From positions 1-47,820 of the forward strand of contig JAHJKL010000073.1 in the NCBI GenBank assembly GCA_018822365.1: a DNA stretch of 47,820 bases, in the 5' to 3' direction. Position numbers and translations under genes: made by a program. The notes under the pieces are model-generated. The model did not search any database, was not told the DNA's origin, and saw nothing but the letters and a program-made list of their open reading frames with translations. Below are positions 76 through 7,448 of the stretch, in pieces (the first letter of the stretch is position 1; the number at the start of each line of letters is the position of its first letter). The stretch is from Candidatus Margulisiibacteriota bacterium (GTDB lineage Bacteria > Margulisbacteria > WOR-1 > O2-12-FULL-45-9 > XYB2-FULL-48-7).

Positions 76-816
76 TTATTTCTTATTAATGGCAGTAATA
101 TATGCCTTTAAATCAATTGCTGATACTGTACCCAATTTCTGAAGCTCTTCAAGTAAATTAAGAAAGAAGAAGATTAACGCCTCTTCTTTTGCGCTCTTCT
201 CAAACACATCTATTCCCTTTTCGTTTTTCTTAAACCAAAAGGCCGCATGATCCAATGAGCAACCGAAATGGATAAATCTTTTAGCGGATAGTTTTGAAAG
301 CTTATTTTTTAATGAGTCACTGCATTTCCCATCAATAGTCAATATCCCCGATAGGATGCCAAATGGCTCTTTAGGCTTATCGATTTTACCACCCGCATGG
401 ACAATTGGTGCAGTTGTACGCTTCAAATCACGAACGGACGCTGCTTTTATTGCGGCGTAACTGATATTAGCCATATTTAAGGTTGGCTTAACTTCCACGA
501 CCGCATAAACACTTTCAGCGGGGATATAAGTTGAGCCATTCCGCTTAAGAATAAAAGGCGAATAGTGGCGGTCGTAAATTACTATATCAATCTGCTGGCT
601 AACATGACCATCACAATCAATAATAAAAGCTCGATCTGCGCGATAACGACTGGGCAAGTAAGCTGAGAGCATATCAATCCATTCAAGTTCACTTGCGCTC
701 CCCTTTGCAACTGGGTGAGTCAATATTTTTCTGTTTAAAGTTAATTTTGATCGCATTTGCTCTTGCAACCCTAAGAATATATCTCTGATATTAATTCGTC
801 GTTTAGATTTCACCAT
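76..816 (-). CDS. DUF6602-family protein, nuclease-like
   Basis: 246 residues. The central block resembles the DUF6602 family: E43/E45, then QIDIVIYD with D77, then VVEVK with E108 and K110. The order E...D...ExK is that of PD-(D/E)xK nucleases, so a nuclease role is inferred, not proven. The start is taken as the ATG at 816, seven bases after a run of G residues that can act as a ribosome binding site; a TTG 15 bases upstream (831) is possible. The start overlaps the end of the nucleotidyltransferase gene (stop at 810-812), which points to translational coupling. It is AT-rich compared with the metabolic genes further right and sits between a nucleotidyltransferase and hsdM, a defence-island context. 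No signal peptide or membrane helix. Confidence 0.72.
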   Translation of the reverse strand: MVKSKRRINIRDIFLGLQEQMRSKLTLNRKILTHPVAKGSASELEWIDMLSAYLPSRYRADRAFIIDCDGHVSQQIDIVIYDRHYSPFILKRNGSTYIPAESVYAVVEVKPTLNMANISYAAIKAASVRDLKRTTAPIVHAGGKIDKPKEPFGILSGILTIDGKCSDSLKNKLSKLSAKRFIHFGCSLDHAAFWFKKNEKGIDVFEKSAKEEALIFFFLNLLEELQKLGTVSAIDLKAYITAINKK

Positions 817-1574
817 ATTATTCCCCCCCAATTCTGCCCTCTTCTGCTTTGTAAGGCTTGATTAGCAATAGTTTGTTTTTCTGTAGCATTTAACTCGTCC
901 GAAATAATATTATTTGTATTTGCAGGATCAACAAATCGAGCCAAAACAAAAGAATTTGAAAGATAATCTAAAACTTTCAATAGATTATCCCCGAGGCCGG
1001 AACGAGAATATTTTAATGATTCGATTACAATAAGCTCAAGATAGATGGAAGGGATATCAATATTATGATTTTTTCTCCATATTTTTGCGAGAACAATTTC
1101 GCCTATTCTGCCTGAATTTCTAACCATGCTAATATGGGCATCAACATTCGTTTTCGTCCTTTCTCTATTTGCCCTATTAACATATAGCCAGTGATCTTCC
1201 GTATTGCCACCAAGGTGAACTGCTGGGACCAAATCAACCTCAAAACCAGCATGATTAACATGGATTGAAACATTTTGCTTACGTATACCGAGATATCCAG
1301 CATTGTTCATTTTGTCATAAAGCATGTTATATATTTGCTGCAATGTCTGTTGCGTATCCGACTTCAATGATATAAATAGATCAATATCCGTTCCGCCATG
1401 TATTGCCGTCCCCTTAGCGTAAGACCCCGAATATTTAATTTCCCTTAATTGGCTACCTGCCCAGGCCTTGATAATTGGGGATATGGAATCATAAACAATT
1501 GAGGCTGGGTTAATTTGTCCAGCGGTTACATGGTATCTACTAATCAAAGATTGTAGATATTCATCTGGGGTCAT
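810..1574 (-). CDS. Nucleotidyltransferase of the OAS/CD-NTase/CCA-like fold
   Basis: 254 residues. The pol-beta type NTase signature is clear: GSYAKGT at residues 50-56, TDIDLF with metal-binding D63 and D65, and a third acidic residue D114 in EVDLVPA. This arrangement is shared by 2'-5' oligoadenylate synthases, CD-NTases and archaeal CCA-adding enzymes. Possible products are therefore a cyclic or linear nucleotide signal, or a nucleotide added to RNA or protein; the sequence alone does not decide. A good ribosome binding site (AAAGGA) precedes the ATG. The downstream DUF6602 gene overlaps its 3' end, suggesting a functional pair. I see no known CBASS effector such as a phospholipase or transmembrane protein, so calling it CBASS would be unsupported. 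Confidence 0.78.
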   Translation of the reverse strand: MTPDEYLQSLISRYHVTAGQINPASIVYDSISPIIKAWAGSQLREIKYSGSYAKGTAIHGGTDIDLFISLKSDTQQTLQQIYNMLYDKMNNAGYLGIRKQNVSIHVNHAGFEVDLVPAVHLGGNTEDHWLYVNRANRERTKTNVDAHISMVRNSGRIGEIVLAKIWRKNHNIDIPSIYLELIVIESLKYSRSGLGDNLLKVLDYLSNSFVLARFVDPANTNNIISDELNATEKQTIANQALQSRRGQNWGGIIW

Positions 1575-1604: not shown

Positions 1605-2135
1605 TTATTTACTCAACGTCGCATATATTCCAACCGCGACAGCCGCGCCGGTAAGAACCTTGTACCAATTATCTTCCCAGAAATCAGGCTTACTCCCCAT
1701 CGTAATTTTATAAATGTCCGAAGTCGGAAGTCCGACGTCCGAGGTCGAAAAGCCAAGATAAGCTTTAGCCTCATCAATTGAACCGGCCTTCTTAACTTCC
1801 CAAGTATCCTTCTTCAAGTCATATTGTACAACATAAATCGGCTTTGGAGTCAGACCAACCACAATCTGCGGCTTATCAAGATAAGCGGAATAATTATTGG
1901 TTAGGAACCGCTGAAAGCCTTTTAGCGACTGTCCCTCGACCGAAACAACGCCTAGCAACGGCAACGAGACCTGCCCATCCGGGGCGACAGTCTGCCTGGT
2001 CTTTAGCTCCGGGTGATTGACCACCTCGAGCTCCAAAGTATCGTAGGGGCCAAGATGGTATTCGGAAGCAAATGACAGATTTCCAAGAACAATCAAATTA
2101 AGAACTATTAACGACACTGATACGATCTTTTTCAT
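1605..2135 (-). CDS. Polysaccharide export (Wza-like) periplasmic protein
   Basis: 176 residues. A signal peptide (MKKIVSVSLIV..., cleavage after about residue 23) is followed by the Poly_export domain: YHLGPYDTLELEV, then PDGQVSLPLLGVVSVEGQ, the classic start of Wza/BexD proteins (PF02563). Such proteins form or line the outer-membrane channel for capsule or exopolysaccharide. Only the first domain is present; the usual SLBB domains are missing, so it is short. The start at 2135 is fixed by the SD AGGAGGG seven bases upstream; an in-frame ATG at 2195 is encoded by a repeat and lacks an SD. Residues about 128-142 (TSDVGLPTSDIYK) are encoded by a dispersed repeat that occurs again in the DUF457 gene. 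A C-terminal hydrophobic stretch (VLTGAAVAVGIYATL) may be a membrane anchor. Confidence 0.8.
   Translation of the reverse strand: MKKIVSVSLIVLNLIVLGNLSFASEYHLGPYDTLELEVVNHPELKTRQTVAPDGQVSLPLLGVVSVEGQSLKGFQRFLTNNYSAYLDKPQIVVGLTPKPIYVVQYDLKKDTWEVKKAGSIDEAKAYLGFSTSDVGLPTSDIYKITMGSKPDFWEDNWYKVLTGAAVAVGIYATLSK
1715..1747. repeat. GTCCGAAGTC-type short repeat, copy 1, inside a coding region
   Basis: A run of near-tandem octamers (GTCCGAAG, GTCGGAAG, GTCCGACG, GTCCGAGG). It lies in frame inside the polysaccharide-export gene and encodes most of TSDVGLPTSDIYK on the minus strand. Copies 2-4 are at 3156-3189, 4128-4164 and 4562-4595. Confidence 0.8.
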
Positions 2136-2226: not shown

Positions 2227-2568
2227 CTATTCTGAACGGTTGATAATTGCCGAAAGAATTTTGATCAACTCTTTCGATTCCTTTAACAACGGCGCTATTT
2301 CCAGCCGTTTATAATCATTCGCTTCTTCAATCAAACATAGCCAATGATTAATTTCTTTGGCTTCACGCCTTGAGATTTTCATTCGCTGAAGAAAATCTTT
2401 TTTGCCGAGAGCATCATTAGCTTCCCGATAATTGGCCCCGACCGATCCAGCCGAGCCTACGGCCTGCCCGGTTAAGCGGTCGTTCATTGGATTTCTGGGC
2501 AGACTTTTGCATAGTCTTATTACGGATCGAGCAAAGTTTGTTGTTCTTTCTTCAAGGTCAAAAACCAT
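2227..2568 (-). CDS. Four-helix bundle protein (TIGR02436, 23S rRNA intervening-sequence type)
   Basis: 113 residues with the family pattern: an N-terminal [16 protein letters not shown] helix, [20 protein letters not shown] in the middle, and [18 protein letters not shown] in helix 3. Proteins of this family form pentameric helical bundles; some are encoded in insertions in 23S rRNA genes, and relatives (bAvd) assist retroelements. Their own function is unknown. The SD (GGGGGTG) precedes ATG 2568. The gene starts 49 bases inside the 3' end of the sigma region 4 gene in another frame, and a repeat array follows its stop, so it looks like a later insertion. A second member of the same family lies at 4146-4547. 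Confidence 0.85.
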
Positions 2569-2789
2569 GTTTCACCCCCTTTTTTAATCCGGCTTGGATG
2601 TTTTAACTTTCTGAGCGCTTTTCTTTCAATTTGCCTGATCCTTTCCCGACACACACCAAAAACATCGCCGATCGCCTGCAATGTCATTTTGCGTCCATCT
2701 AATAATCCATAGCGCATTTCAATGACTTGTCTTTCCCTTTGGGATAAATAAACAAGAAGCTCCTTTTTAATCAATAAACTGTCAATCAT
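2520..2789 (-). CDS. Stand-alone sigma70 region 4 protein
   Basis: 89 residues. [16 protein letters not shown] is region 4.1 and [20 protein letters not shown] plus [11 protein letters not shown] is the region 4.2 helix-turn-helix that reads -35 boxes in RpoD-type sigma factors. Regions 1-3, including the core-binding region 2, are absent, so it cannot be a full sigma factor. It might be a remnant of an rpoD-like gene or a small regulator. The natural end of RpoD proteins is close to the HPSR motif; here the frame continues 22 residues into the start of the four-helix-bundle gene, which suggests the original stop was lost by insertion. The SD AGGAGATAG precedes the ATG. It begins 2 bases after the DUF457 gene ends, so they form one transcript. 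Confidence 0.75.
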
Positions 2790-2791
2790 GA

Positions 2792-4123
2792 CTATCTCCT
2801 AATATAAACTTCGCCGGAAAAGAGAGGTCGGCCGGAAGCAAGTTTAAGTTTTAGCTCATCGATCCTGACGTTTAGTTCCTCAAGCTGGCTGGTTAATTCA
2901 GCTAGCCGCGTCCCCTGCTTCTCTGCCTCGGCCCTATCAACCAAAACTTCTTTTCCAAGAGCGGTCAAGCCACCATCGTCAAGAGCCGCTATCTCGCCCC
3001 GAATCCTTCTGGCCTGGGCATTTAACCGGGAAAGTTCCGCCAGATTCCGCCTGTTCTTCATTTCATATTCCTGCGTCAGCGCCAGCTTCTCGATCTGCCT
3101 CCGGGAAGCGTAGGTAAGAACTAAGTCGCGGCCTTTTTGTTCTATAGTTTTATAAACGTCCGATGTCCGAAGTCCTAGGTCCGAAGTCGTGGAAAAGTCG
3201 ATCGTCATATCTTCTGGAAGGTGGATTGTTCCAGAAACCAGGGCATTTTTGGGAATCTGGGCCAAAAGATAATCCCGACTTTTATCCCTAAACTCCCGCC
3301 GTTCAATTTTGATCGGTTGGTCTGTCTTTTTAACCCGGACATGCGAAGCGAAGATATCGGCGGCAAGTTCATCGCTTAAGGTATAAATATTCCCTTCAAA
3401 CAGAATAACCAGCCGCTGGTTGTTGACGTCAAGCACCTCTCCCCGACCAGCGATCGGCTCTTTGGTTTCATTTAAGACCCCTTTGAAATCGAGATAAGCG
3501 TGCGTCTTAAGGGTTTTAAACTCCTGGATCGCCGATCCGGGGGTCGCCAGAAGCCACCGCAAAGAGCTGGCTAAACCGAATTTGGATAAAGGGAACGCCA
3601 GGACCATCAAAATAACCAGGATGAAAAACACCAAAACTTCCGCTTTCGCCCCTGATTCCAACCTGAATTTTGGGTTTTTAGGGATAACATCCCGTCCGGG
3701 ATCGGGCCAAAACATCTGGGAACCGCGGGGATTGAACATATCAAGGATCAGATGAGACAAGTAACTAATACTGAACGAAGCAATCCATCTTGGAACTAAA
3801 TCCCAAGCTCCAAAGCCCAAATCACAAACAAAGCTCAATAACCAAACTATAAATAGAGACAAGAAACTAAATACTACTGAAAAAATAATCCAGCCGATGA
3901 GTGAATGCGTGACGGTCCGATGGCCGTATCGCCGCTCAAGCGGGCCGGAAATAAAAGAGAAGATCCGACCGATGGTGGAATTGGGATGGTCGATATCCGG
4001 CATGATCGATCCAATGACGGCAAACAAGATAATCGTCCAGTGCAGGCTCCACTGAACGCCAAAAATCGCCAAAACGATCAGCGTCAGGAAGATACCAAAG
4101 ATTCCATGGGTCGGCGCGAGCAT
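2792..4123 (-). CDS. DUF457/YdjM-type membrane-bound metal-dependent hydrolase
   Basis: 443 residues. The N-terminus has the family pattern: THGIFG, then [11 protein letters not shown] (metal-binding D and H residues), then [14 protein letters not shown], and [13 protein letters not shown], with about four to five membrane segments in the first 190 residues. Family members (PF04307, YdjM is SOS-regulated in E. coli) are assigned as membrane-bound hydrolases from their motifs. The C-terminal 220 residues are soluble and end in a predicted coiled coil (about 340-425), which is longer than usual. Residues about 86-100 and 311-325 are encoded by two different dispersed repeats. The ATG has no SD: immediately upstream lies the terminal inverted repeat of the inserted unit at 4128-4595, which may have removed the native leader. 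Confidence 0.75.
3156..3189. repeat. GTCCGAAGTC-type short repeat, copy 2, inside a coding region
   Basis: Near-tandem octamers (GTCCGATG, GTCCGAAG, GTCCTAGG, GTCCGAAG). Read on the minus strand in the frame of the DUF457 gene it gives [13 protein letters not shown], almost the same peptide as copy 1 gives in the polysaccharide-export protein. Confidence 0.8.
3824..3870. repeat. Second repeat family inside the DUF457 gene
   Basis: AT-rich sequence with caataaccaaac and agagacaagaaac, related to the array at 2155-2220. In the reading frame it encodes the hydrophobic stretch [12 protein letters not shown], so it forms part of a membrane helix. Confidence 0.5.
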
Positions 4124-4127
4124 AAAA

Positions 4128-4595
4128 TGTCCGACGTCCGAAGTCCTAAGTCCGAAGCCCTAGGCTAGACGTCTTTCCTCCTTTATTCGTTTTTTGTAAA
4201 TATCTAATAAAACCATAAATAAGATTCTTGATTTTAACGATGTCATCGGAAAGCTTTCGAAAATATTCCTCCGATAAATACGCCTGATCTAAAGCGACAT
4301 AGAGATGCGATTGGACTTCGGACGCGGATCGTCTTGAGTAAATTAAAAACTTGATAAATTCTAAGTCCGACTGCGCATCAAATCCTTCGGCAATGTTAGC
4401 CATTATGGAAGCGGCCGCGCTTCTAATTTGATCTTTTAAGCGGAAATCTTTGTCAAAATTTCCCTTTGAGGTCAGAGCATAAATGCTTTTTGTTAATTCT
4501 CTGGCCTCATGCCAGGCTTTAATATCTTCAAATTTATCGATTTTCATAATTCCCATCCTTTGACTTCGGACATCGGACTTCCCCAACGTCGGACA
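4128..4595. mobile_element. 468-bp unit with 10-bp terminal inverted repeats carrying a four-helix-bundle gene
   Basis: The ends are TGTCCGACGT (4128-4137) and ACGTCGGACA (4586-4595), a perfect inverted pair. Inside each end lies more of the GTCCGAAG-type repeat, in opposite orientations (copy 3 at 4128-4164, copy 4 at 4562-4595). The only gene inside is the four-helix-bundle gene. The unit sits exactly between the stop of the recombinase-ATPase gene (4600) and the ATG of the DUF457 gene (4123). I see no target-site duplication and no transposase. That it is mobile is an inference from the ends and the gene's frequent scattered occurrence in other bacteria. Confidence 0.5.
4146..4547 (-). CDS. 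Four-helix bundle protein (TIGR02436), second copy
   Basis: 133 residues from the ATG at 4547, which has the SD AAGGA eight bases upstream (an ATG at 4586 lies in the repeat and has none). Family motifs: FEDIKAWHEARELTKSIY, FRLKDQIRSAAASIMANIAEGF, FIKFLIYSRRSASEVQSHLYVA, all typical of this group of small helical-bundle proteins of unknown role. It is only distantly similar to the copy at 2227-2568, so it is not a recent duplicate. Its last residues (SSLGLRT) and stop codon are encoded by the flanking repeat, so the repeat has replaced the native 3' end. Confidence 0.87.
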   Translation of the reverse strand: MKIDKFEDIKAWHEARELTKSIYALTSKGNFDKDFRLKDQIRSAAASIMANIAEGFDAQSDLEFIKFLIYSRRSASEVQSHLYVALDQAYLSEEYFRKLSDDIVKIKNLIYGFIRYLQKTNKGGKTSSLGLRT

Positions 4596-4599
4596 GTTG

Positions 4600-6054
4600 C
4601 TACTTCATTTTGAACATAAAAACCCGCACCGTCGCGAGCAAAGCAGTGCCGAAACCAGCCAGAATGTACCCCTCAAAGCTGTGCATACCAAGAGCCACAA
4701 ACCGGAACGCTATCACTATTCCCCAAAGAATGATGATCACGGGGGTCCAGTCGCGGAAATAAACCCCCGCTTCATGGTAAACCTCACGAATAACCTCCTT
4801 ATTGACCACCGGCCGGTGACTGACCTGATGGATCATGTCGACAATCGCGACCGGCAGATGGTTGGACAAAGAAAGTATCCTGGTCTCGAGCATCTCGTAA
4901 TCGGTAATGGAGAGATTCTGGGTCAAGTAACGGATCAACTCTTTGGCCGCCTCTTCGCTCAACGGTTTCAGGTCGATCCGTTTGAATTTCCACCAAACCG
5001 ATTTGAGCTTCGGTTTCGGCTCTTCGACCGCCGCCAGGATAGTAAACTTCTCGAGAAGTGTAAGAAAGTTCTCGATATCCGACGCTTTCAGGCTATCCAG
5101 GTTGTCGATAATCAGAATGGTTTTTTGAGCTTCAAGCGCACCGGTAATCTGGCCAACGATCTCCTTTGAAGAGGAACGGCCGAGCTTCTCTCCTGGACAA
5201 TTTAGCTTTTTATGTAATTGTTTGAGCAAGTCGCGCATCGGTGAAGGAGACGAGAAGTACAAGGCGCTGGGACCAAGCGCGTCGGTAATGTTTTTGAGAA
5301 GATGTGTTTTCCCGATCCCCACTTGGCCGGTTAAAAGAACCGACTGGCCTTTCTTAAGATGTCCCTTGATATCTTCAATTACCCCCTCTCGCCCAAAAGC
5401 AACTTCCGTTGGGCTGGGCAGGATCACCCCTTTGATGCCGGTTAGTGGTTTAGCGATCTTCGGTTTGGTTGGAAAGAGTTTGGCCAGAAGCTTCACCAGA
5501 ACCGGGCGAGTATCGACCTCTTCCGGAACGAGGTTAACTTTCGGCGGCTCTTTTGCCGCTTTAATATAGCGGCTGATCGATTCGGAGTCGGTAATCCCAA
5601 GAATGGCGGCCGCCCGGTCGATCGAGACCTCTTCCCGGCAGAGCCTGGCCGCGAAAGTGTGTCGGAGCATCTTGGCGTTAACCTTTTTGCCGATCCCGGC
5701 TTGGGCGGCATATTTGCGGATAAGGTGATCGACAGTTCGGGCAGAAAGTGCGTTGACCTCTCCTTTGGTGGTCGTAAACAACGCAGTGATTTGAGTATTC
5801 ACTCTAACCTTGGACCATTTGGCCAAAGCCTCAAAGAGCTGGTCATTTAATTGAATTTCCCTCCCCCTATTACCGGCAACCGCGAGTATCTTCTTTTCCC
5901 AATTAATTGAATCGGTTTTTAAGTTAACCAGCTCGTTGAGAAATATCCCGGTATTCAAAAAGAGGAGGATAATCGCCAGATCGCGAGTATCATCGATCGC
6001 GGACAATAGCGCGTTAATTTCGTTGGTCGTTAAGTATTCAACATTCCCTGGCAT
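4600..6054 (-). CDS. Degenerate tyrosine recombinase fused to AAA ATPase and C-terminal membrane helices
   Basis: 484 residues in three parts. Residues 1-170: tyrosine-recombinase catalytic fold (LTTNEINALLSAI, NTGIFLNELVNLK, MLRHTFAARL, ILGITDSESISRYIKAA). The first catalytic Arg of TGLRxSEL is F38, the HxLRH histidine is replaced (AKMLRH) and the LLGH histidine is lost; R131-H132 and Y163 remain. The N-terminal SAM-like arm-binding domain is absent. Residues about 215-430: P-loop ATPase with Walker A GQVGIGKT (243-250) and Walker B TILIID (312-317). Residues 436-454 and 463-478 are membrane helices. SD AGGGGTG before the ATG. A recombinase activity is unlikely; DNA binding coupled to a membrane ATPase is the inference. 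Genes around it carry repeats and an inverted-repeat unit. Confidence 0.8.
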   Translation of the reverse strand: MPGNVEYLTTNEINALLSAIDDTRDLAIILLFLNTGIFLNELVNLKTDSINWEKKILAVAGNRGREIQLNDQLFEALAKWSKVRVNTQITALFTTTKGEVNALSARTVDHLIRKYAAQAGIGKKVNAKMLRHTFAARLCREEVSIDRAAAILGITDSESISRYIKAAKEPPKVNLVPEEVDTRPVLVKLLAKLFPTKPKIAKPLTGIKGVILPSPTEVAFGREGVIEDIKGHLKKGQSVLLTGQVGIGKTHLLKNITDALGPSALYFSSPSPMRDLLKQLHKKLNCPGEKLGRSSSKEIVGQITGALEAQKTILIIDNLDSLKASDIENFLTLLEKFTILAAVEEPKPKLKSVWWKFKRIDLKPLSEEAAKELIRYLTQNLSITDYEMLETRILSLSNHLPVAIVDMIHQVSHRPVVNKEVIREVYHEAGVYFRDWTPVIIILWGIVIAFRFVALGMHSFEGYILAGFGTALLATVRVFMFKMK

Positions 6055-6553
6055 TGCTTATCACCCCTTGTTTAGTCCCGCTAAGGTAGAAAGCAAAATC
6101 CTTGCCAAAAGCTATTGGAACCAACTATTTCTTATAATATCAAGCTATTTTTACGGGATTATGCGAACTTTTCGGTCGATATGGCGAAATACCCCCAGGG
6201 ATATTGCCGACTTTCCGTCACTCTCCCACTCTTCTTGTCTTGTTCCCGGGGCGGGGGGGTTTTCAAAGCGGCTGGGGAGGGAAAGAGCGGGAGGGGAAGG
6301 CGACTCACTTAAGCCCGCCAATCCCCGCCAAAGGCGGGATTTAGGAGCGTTAGCTCTGCCGCGATAGCGGTGGCGGGCGGGAGCGGGAACTATAGGGGTT
6401 GGTTTGGCTTGTTATTAAATACGAGATACCGACGGTAAAAGATAAGCTGAAGGAAAAGATCGTGGTGTAATTATTATTGGGAAATTTAACAACTAATTGA
6501 GCGGCAAGAGTTATTGAGTGAGTGAACAAGGCTTCTTATTAGAGGTGGAATAA
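6055..6553. other. Intergenic region, about 500 bases
   Basis: No convincing complete gene. It holds the cloverleaf-like repeat at 6313-6378. At about 6406-6470 the plus strand reads VIKYEIPTVKDKLKEKIVV and then a stop, which looks like the charged tail of a lost gene but has no start. The rest is low-information AT-rich sequence. Confidence 0.4.
6313..6378. repeat. Cloverleaf-like GC-rich structured element
   Basis: An 8-bp outer stem GCCCGCCA (6313-6320) / TGGCGGGC (6371-6378) encloses three hairpins: CCCGCC-aaa-GGCGGG (6324-6338), GAGC-gtta-GCTC (6345-6356) and CCGC-gata-GCGG (6359-6370). It is tRNA-sized but has no tRNA conserved positions. Most likely a dispersed palindromic (REP-like) element or a small structured RNA. 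Confidence 0.6.
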
Positions 6554-6730
6554 ATGAGCCAGGAGAGAGTTTTGTTTGGCAACTTGGTGTTTGGCCCTTG
6601 TTTGGTAATTGTCTCTTGTTTCTTGCAGGTAGCAGCGCGCAAGGTAAAAATATATAGGGATGTTGCGATGTTAGCCGGTAGCTTGGTAGTTAAAGAATGG
6701 TTTAAAGATGAGCTCCTGGGCTGTTTTTAG
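6554..6730 (+). CDS. Possible small protein, 58 residues
   Basis: The frame starts with ATG after a good SD (GAGGTGG) and encodes 58 residues. It has a hydrophobic stretch (NLVFGPCLVIVSCFL) and a charged end (VVKEWFKDELLG). Part of the hydrophobic stretch is encoded by sequence related to the CAATTACCAAGA repeat family, so the frame may be chance coding over a repeat. No family recognised. Low confidence. Confidence 0.25.
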   Translation: MSQERVLFGNLVFGPCLVIVSCFLQVAARKVKIYRDVAMLAGSLVVKEWFKDELLGCF

Positions 6731-6833
6731 CATATGGTAGATCTTCAGTTTCAGGTCAGCCGTAGGTTTTAATGAAGTATCGTTTCACGTCTTAATTATA
6801 GCAGGTTTTAGGGATCAGGGCTGAAAACGCGCT

Positions 6834-7015: not shown

Positions 7016-7448
7016 TTTGCCGCCTTTGAGCTGACCGGCATGGGGCGTGATCAGGCCCGCTTCCAGTCCCTCTCCTGCTTCTCCGGGACCGGGTTTACCA
7101 CCCAGGAATCAGAGCTGGTCACCGGCCATCCGCAAAGAAGGAAGATCGCCAGCTACCTGATGATCCTGGGGAACGCCGGCTTAGTCACCCTGATCGCCAC
7201 TTTTGCCAACACCATCCGTCCGGTCGACGCACGAGGGATTCGGCGTGTCGCAATTTGACGTCCACGCGGACAGCACCCTGGTCGGAAAAAAGCTAAAGGA
7301 TCTTAAGCTAAAGGAAGCAGAGGTTCAGATCCCGCTCATCGAGCGGACCAAGGGGTCGGTGGTCATCCCCAAAGGACCGGACACTCTGGCATCCGGGGAT
7401 ACCCTGATCTGTTTCGGGCGGCTGGAGACTATCCGCAAACATGCCTAG
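7016..7448 (+). pseudogene. Remnant of a TrkH-like/RCK_C membrane protein
   Basis: The plus strand from 7016 reads FAAFELTGMGRDQARFQS and then SCFSGTGFTTQESE and LMILGNAGLVTLIATFANT, the pore-like segment of membrane proteins that carry a C-terminal TrkA_C (RCK_C) domain. At about 7225-7240 the frame shifts and the TrkA_C domain follows (FDVHADSTLVGKKLKDLKL ... SGDTLICFGRLETI), ending at 7448. The N-terminal part and start codon are missing, and the linker between the two halves is shortened. I read this as a decayed gene with 5' truncation, internal deletion and frameshift. Two separate short frames (7040-7258 and 7203-7448) are its visible pieces. It ends ten bases from the convergent Ktr operon. 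Confidence 0.75.

Follow-up and report, generated by a model that had tools for sequence, protein, structure and literature searches.

In Tn6022-like Tn7 transposons, the inactivated tyrosine recombinase TnsF serves as a DNA-binding target selector, and an active homologue is found in Tsy elements (PMC10293859). The locus described here lies in a 47,820-nucleotide stretch (the window) of contig JAHJKL010000073.1, from the chromosome of a member of candidate division WOR-1 (Margulisbacteria), and resembles that system in several respects: a recombinase domain dead for catalysis appears to be kept for DNA recognition, it sits beside an ATPase, and active relatives occur in other elements. The differences lie in the parts. 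TnsF has zinc fingers, two core-binding domains, a partial catalytic domain and TniQ/TnsABC partners, whereas the window fusion keeps the catalytic-domain region only, joined to an AAA-membrane protein; TniQ and TnsABC are absent among the recurring neighbours and annotated plasmid loci. XerCD-FtsK likewise couples an Xer-family recombinase to a membrane-anchored ATPase, but the fusion has an AAA_22 ATPase with a C-terminal hairpin, a degenerate recombinase fused in cis and extra envelope components.

Some versions of the operon to which the fusion belongs also recall transport systems. Thermus and cyanobacterial versions share OEP-type and membrane-fusion-type components with tripartite exporters and type I secretion, but here the AAA-hairpin ATPase and the YdjM metalloprotein make up the inner-membrane portion, and no ABC, RND or MFS pump was found among the recurring neighbours in a 29-neighbourhood comparison. 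As with conjugation systems, the operon is plasmid-borne and includes a coupling-protein-like ATPase in cyanobacteria; relaxase and mating-pair genes are, however, absent from 49 of 50 carrier plasmids (MOB-suite). Wza exporters share the Poly_export domain with the exported window protein, in which Pfam gave no match to an SLBB domain. E. coli YdjM is SOS-regulated. The YdjM/DUF457 domain (PF04307) and its conserved His/Asp residues are present in the partner described here, but the partner's long C-terminal extracytoplasmic extension and its operon with an AAA-2TM gene are not described for the E. coli protein. The component families are all known; what is new is their combination and its spread. 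We found no description of the operon in the literature searched, whose coverage leaves out most subscription journals. An earlier note on this DNA was right that such a protein has no standard name.

Table 1 Features of the operon and its surroundings in the window
Feature	Positions	Strand	Extent in the protein	Basis or remark
NucC-type CBASS effector nuclease	76..831	-		PADLOC E 9.5e-88, NucC E 3e-58, DUF6602; variable defence cargo
CBASS-type oligonucleotide cyclase	810..1574	-		PADLOC Cyclase E 3e-87; variable defence cargo
Exported Poly_export (Wza-type) protein	1605..2135	-	176 aa from inner ATG	PF02563 E 1.8e-18; third conserved component
Second 23S_rRNA_IVP protein	2227..2568	-		Profile match; cargo
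Small sigma-70 region 4 protein	2520..2789	-		PF04545; present in 3 Margulisbacteria loci
YdjM inner-membrane metalloprotein	2792..4123	-	443 aa	PF04307 E 7e-28; conserved partner
Predicted YdjM C-terminal helical hairpin	2834..3103	-	~residues 341-430, then final strand SGEVYIR	AF2 model, alignment
23S_rRNA_IVP four-helix protein	4146..4586	-		PF05635 E 5e-32; between fusion and YdjM; cargo, not conserved elsewhere
YR-AAA-2TM fusion gene	4600..6054	-	484 aa	Stop-free ORF; homologues exist
C-terminal membrane hairpin of fusion	4612..4746	-	~residues 437-481	Conserved motif RF.ALG.HSFEGYILAGFG
AAA_22 ATPase core of fusion	5050..5349	-	residues 236-335	PF13401 E 1.5e-14
Degenerate tyrosine-recombinase catalytic domain of fusion	5551..6036	-	residues 7-168	PF00589 Phage_integrase E 3e-26
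Non-coding block upstream of fusion	6112..6221	-		105/110 identical to sister species

Pfam searches and hydropathy show that the fusion runs from a XerA/XerD-like catalytic domain through an AAA ATPase to a two-helix membrane hairpin at its C-terminus. Together with residue alignment, they confirm the earlier picture of a recombinase half with lost residues, an intact P-loop and two membrane helices. Homology to the recombinase catalytic-domain family is established by the PF00589 match, with XerA as the nearest family and the XerA-type 4a8e and 5hxy as the nearest solved structures (E ~3e-18). Because that match begins at residue 7, with no further sequence ahead of it, the N-terminal core-binding (SAM-like) domain is missing. 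The ATPase core carries Walker A (GQVGIGKT) and Walker B (ILIIDN) motifs that are conserved in the alignments; it scores as AAA_22 in Pfam, with FtsK_SpoIIIE not among the matches listed. Hydropathy places the membrane segments at about residues 439-457 and 463-481, and the hairpin motif is almost invariant in the Margulisbacteria copies, its pattern still visible in relatives from other phyla. An AlphaFold2 model of the fusion from a three-sequence input was poor (mean pLDDT 51.5).

Aligned to intact homologues, the catalytic positions of the window protein read R1=F38, H2=K128, R2=R131, RH=H132, H3=I154 and Tyr=Y163. The residues first listed for this protein (F38 and two histidines lost, RH pair and Tyr163 kept) were thus correct. 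Across the 12 Margulisbacteria copies R131 and Y163 are invariant, and R1, H2 and H3 are replaced in all 12 (R1 by F, Y or S; H2 by K, Q or L; H3 by I). Retention of the RH pair holds for the window and its sister species but not for the other ten copies, where the histidine is N or S. Four fusions on Bacteroidota plasmids and one on a spirochaete plasmid retain the full set R, H, R, H, H, Y. The earlier note took homologues that show full catalytic residues and act as integrases as grounds for refutation, and the first half of this is true of these plasmid relatives. Since they have the complete set, catalytic loss is a trait of the Margulisbacteria clade and not of the fusion architecture.

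Could the fusion nonetheless be a working integrase with unusual residues? The invariant Tyr163 and Arg131 and the complete catalytic sets of the Bacteroidota relatives would fit, but with R1, H2 and H3 gone from every Margulisbacteria copy, the RH histidine gone from ten, the N-terminal DNA clamp missing and the window locus sharing its chromosomal position with that of the sister species, we regard this as very improbable indeed. Catalysis is hardly to be expected of the recombinase in the Margulisbacteria clade, and the best reading is that it docks on DNA, the role shown for inactivated TnsF; it makes a second case, after TnsF, of a catalysis-dead recombinase domain being retained. A comparison of the window with the sister species gives dN/dS values of 0.064 (recombinase part), 0.084 (ATPase) and 0.016 (hairpin), which indicate purifying selection on every part of the fusion. 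By these ratios, selection on the degenerate recombinase domain is strong, and the domain appears to keep a function without catalysis. In the tree, the degenerate copies group in one clade (support 100/99), separate from a clade of the plasmid copies (97/97); AU tests did not separate a single from a double origin of the fusion (p 0.15 for the recombinase part and 0.32 for the AAA part).

Matches to the fusion occur in 10 of 74 Margulisbacteria genomes, nine of which hold full-length copies (45-94% identity), all Margulisbacteria copies being chromosomal. The closest relative, at 94% identity, is in another genome of candidate division WOR-1 (Margulisbacteria). A variant in G065 has the recombinase domain attached straight to the membrane hairpin, the ATPase being missing, and a 75-aa open reading frame near the full copy in G019 (L031, 11465-11692) is a second fragment comprising the C-terminal fusion hairpin alone. 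Beyond this phylum, tblastn recovered the same domain order, which the earlier note had proposed searching for, on five Bacteroidota plasmid records from four genera (coverage 92-99%, identity 23-27%). Given full-length relatives in independent genomes, one of them a single 1.67-Mb contig (G001), as well as on these plasmids, a chance fusion or misassembly is ruled out. A viral origin was considered and rejected: viral contigs held no relative, and phage records match the recombinase half alone.

The AAA-hairpin part is also found without the recombinase, on further plasmids where it is annotated 'ATP-binding protein'. In all, the AAA-2TM gene is carried by 50 plasmid records from at least seven phyla besides Margulisbacteria. 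The carrier groups are Thermus, cyanobacteria (among them Synechocystis PCC 6803 with pSYSX, genes SGL_RS01390-SGL_RS01405), Gammaproteobacteria, Desulfocapsa, Fusobacteria, Bacteroidota and one spirochaete. MOB-suite types 49 of the 50 records as non-mobilizable. On these plasmids, the operon genes are annotated merely as 'site-specific integrase', 'ATP-binding protein' and 'metal-dependent hydrolase'. The operon bears on how plasmids that have no relaxase genes spread, for it is conserved on such plasmids and combines envelope-spanning parts with a module for DNA recognition; as two carriers are genetically tractable, the question is directly testable.

Inspection of the genomic neighbours, also proposed earlier, revealed conserved partners (YdjM and an exported protein) and with them a larger operon that had been missed. 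The window YdjM protein scores 97.7 bits against a PF04307 gathering cut-off of 29 and keeps the metal-type residues H6, D43, D45, H68, H73 and D128, which are at least 90% conserved across 25 sequences. A 'metal-dependent hydrolase' gene near the AAA match proved to be YdjM in every plasmid locus opened, the spirochaete included. On at least 46 of the 50 plasmid records with an AAA-2TM gene, YdjM lies within ~5 kb on the same strand, the remaining four records not being among the best 60 YdjM matches. A neighbourhood comparison of 29 loci recovered the AAA/fusion family in 28 and YdjM in 26, counts from which the L050 AAA and L053 YdjM genes, though annotated, dropped owing to overlapping open reading frames. 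Among the 74 Margulisbacteria genomes, with presence scored by a match of at least 225 aa, YdjM occurs in 9 of 10 that bear the fusion and 2 of 64 others (Fisher p 5e-9), and AAA and YdjM distances are correlated over 24 loci (Mantel rho 0.75, reached in 0 of 2000 permutations).

The partnership has exceptions. Some copies stand alone, as does the G023:C4 fusion, near which there is no YdjM. Shortened C-terminal remnants of YdjM, some with internal stops, occur in G009, G011, G013, G021 and G029, genomes without a full fusion, which indicates that the module decays, is lost and is gained. On the Flammeovirga MY04 plasmid (L047, 4179-5443), YdjM is annotated as two open reading frames matching one protein, probably through a frameshift. 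An AF2 model of the window YdjM from a two-sequence input had a mean pLDDT of 44.4, the C-terminal helical hairpin alone being well predicted; the layout and this low-confidence model suggest that the WOR-1 YdjM tail may be of the membrane-fusion type (MFP-like). The Thermus YdjM has a lipoyl-like segment at its C-terminus.

The exported component is more varied. Proteins of the Poly_export/Wza-type family are present in seven Margulisbacteria loci and track the fusion across the 74 genomes (p 7e-6), while OEP/TolC matches were obtained in Thermus (1.4e-9) and Fusobacteria (1.8e-4). The Gammaproteobacteria and Thiospirochaeta have a secreted protein of uncertain family, the TolC likeness of the gammaproteobacterial one being weak (hhalign probability 14%). 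The notion of split forms with the recombinase as upstream gene was dropped, the upstream gene in these two groups encoding a secreted TolC-like or unknown protein. No exported outer-membrane-type component was identified in the Bacteroidota plasmids. We assume that exported proteins from differing families (Wza-type, TolC-type) would play an analogous role.

Several further genes recur. Coupling-protein-like ATPases follow the AAA-YdjM pair in the cyanobacterial versions only: a TrwB/VirD4-like protein directly downstream of YdjM in Synechococcus (PF10412 E 6.7e-11), whereas those of Synechocystis and Gloeocapsa belong to DUF87. Synechocystis and Synechococcus also encode a membrane-fusion-type protein in which the half-motifs EGDTVNRGQVL and KSPYSGTIRRI flank a coiled coil. 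Genes for secreted nucleases, of the SNase family or the DNA/RNA non-specific endonuclease type, are repeatedly found close to the locus: in Thermus, Desulfocapsa, Fusobacteria, Synechocystis, Synechococcus, Flammeovirga, Thiospirochaeta, three Margulisbacteria loci and Picosynechococcus, for which YdjM is present and an AAA gene was not identified. In Desulfocapsa an intact separate recombinase is encoded in the same operon and overlaps the next gene.

That the fusion is one subunit of a conserved operon, consisting of a (YR-)AAA-2TM protein, YdjM and an exported outer-membrane-type protein, is near certain. The envelope-spanning parts, the cytoplasmic ATPase, the DNA-recognition module, the coupling-type ATPases of one lineage and the plasmid location point to DNA handling at the envelope. 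Tentatively, and with somewhat less than even confidence, we take the fusion to be a DNA-binding ATPase, anchored to the membrane from the cytoplasm, within an envelope-spanning complex whose task would be to tether DNA or translocate it. The domains, the conserved partners, the lost residues, the purifying selection and the location on plasmids and in islands are shown; that the protein binds DNA, that the parts assemble and that DNA is the substrate we infer. In such a complex, the AAA ATPase with its C-terminal membrane hairpin would lie at the cytoplasmic face. YdjM would occupy the inner membrane and extend into the periplasm by its coiled-coil/lipoyl-like C-terminus or through a distinct membrane-fusion protein. 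A Wza-like or TolC-like exported outer-membrane-type protein would be the third part, often accompanied by a secreted nuclease. DNA would be bound by the recognition module: by a recombinase domain, at a specific site in the element, or by a recombinase or KfrA-like protein encoded separately. ATP-driven assembly would keep the bound DNA at the inner-membrane complex, which would tether it at the envelope or pass it across. In Margulisbacteria the recombinase would no longer cut and would act, like TnsF, as a DNA-binding module only; its relatives on plasmids of Bacteroidota and the spirochaete may have kept recombination, for example in multimer resolution. It is possible, though doubtful, that the operon encodes an undescribed, relaxase-independent apparatus by which plasmid DNA crosses the envelope through export, uptake or both, spread over at least eight phyla on plasmids typed as non-mobilizable; the chromosomal Margulisbacteria form would be a domesticated version with a DNA-docking recombinase.

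Another reading is a role in plasmid maintenance, where the AAA-2TM complex would anchor the plasmid at the membrane so that it is partitioned or its multimers are resolved. The recombinase, still active in Bacteroidota but degenerate in Margulisbacteria, would recognise a site, and the envelope partners would act as anchor only. ParA/ParB and Rep genes are near the operon on several plasmids, a KfrA_N DNA-binding protein is encoded immediately upstream of the AAA gene in Anabaena, and the Bacteroidota fusions keep all catalytic residues. Partition, however, needs no outer-membrane-type exported protein, membrane-fusion-type protein or YdjM metalloenzyme; ParAB is already present on many of these plasmids; and conservation extends to the Margulisbacteria copies, which are catalytically dead and lie in chromosomes. 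We consider maintenance rather unlikely.

The window locus consists of eight minus-strand genes separated by gaps of at most 91 bp, in the order fusion, IVP, YdjM, sigma r4, IVP, Poly_export, CBASS cyclase and NucC. The CBASS pair (76-1574) lies at the contig start, co-oriented with and directly downstream of the Poly_export gene. In the sister species, the trio is at the identical chromosomal place and the cargo is an RNase_H_2/Cas4-like protein, a DrmD-like SNF2 helicase and an SMC-type ATPase; SIR2/pAgo-like or AbiEi genes are the cargo at other Margulisbacteria loci. Because the defence genes differ between loci while the trio stays, the Margulisbacteria trio is a stable core within a defence island of changing cargo. 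A mobile element that moved between the two sister species is rejected for that pair, which share the place and a neighbour though the cargo differs.

Such surroundings invite a reading as anti-phage or anti-plasmid defence, in which a STAND-like membrane sensor would detect incoming DNA and, with YdjM and a nuclease, block it or damage the membrane. The trio lies amid CBASS, DrmD-like helicase, pAgo/SIR2-like and AbiE genes, and secreted nucleases are close by. The AAA part has weak nSTAND, NACHT and NB-ARC matches below cut-offs, weak NACHT/Avs similarity and, in most copies, a GxP motif. Against this, the AAA-2TM protein has no C-terminal sensor repeats of the STAND type, no PADLOC model matches the three trio proteins above background, and the defence genes, varying by locus beside a constant trio, look like cargo, of a kind that plasmids carry anyway. 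Defence thus seems unlikely as the function of the trio. Of the roles first suggested for a recombinase-derived membrane protein (DNA organisation, transfer or defence), each is plausible in a context of YdjM, a Wza/TolC-type protein, plasmids and defence cargo, and the envelope DNA-handling complex remains the one we favour.

The non-coding block upstream of the fusion has only 5 differences in 110 bp between the two species, though dS of the fusion gene is 0.39, and includes an imperfect 26-bp inverted repeat at 6183-6208. No copies of the block were found elsewhere in the genomes. A structured RNA was rejected (z +1.6, no Rfam match), and the block is a candidate operator or binding site. 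An operator here would agree with the view that the operon secretes or exports protein, polysaccharide or lipid in the manner of a tripartite exporter and that the recombinase domain merely regulates its own operon; the Wza/TolC-type and membrane-fusion-type components fit as well. But the operon has no conserved partner of the ABC, RND or polymerase kind, the neighbourhood comparison found no shared substrate gene, and the coupling-protein-like ATPases point to DNA. We hold such export to be as improbable as a defence function.

Around the locus, some smaller features were seen. In the sister genome (G001, contig 1), a ~586-bp inverted repeat, 85% identical between its copies at ~722.7-723.3 kb and 756.6-757.1 kb, flanks the defence island, and a piece of it is present at 6625-6780 of the window. 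A serine recombinase is encoded near 720.7-722.3 kb of the same contig. About 15 kb from the sister trio operon, three adjacent same-strand genes (L073, 736149-739149), two of which overlap weak tyrosine-recombinase matches, resemble a recombinase-in-trio array. Finally, a short open reading frame at 7203-7448 of the window, between the operon and complete TrkA/TrkH-type genes, is like the TrkA C-terminal domain with the rest of the gene missing, and is possibly a remnant.
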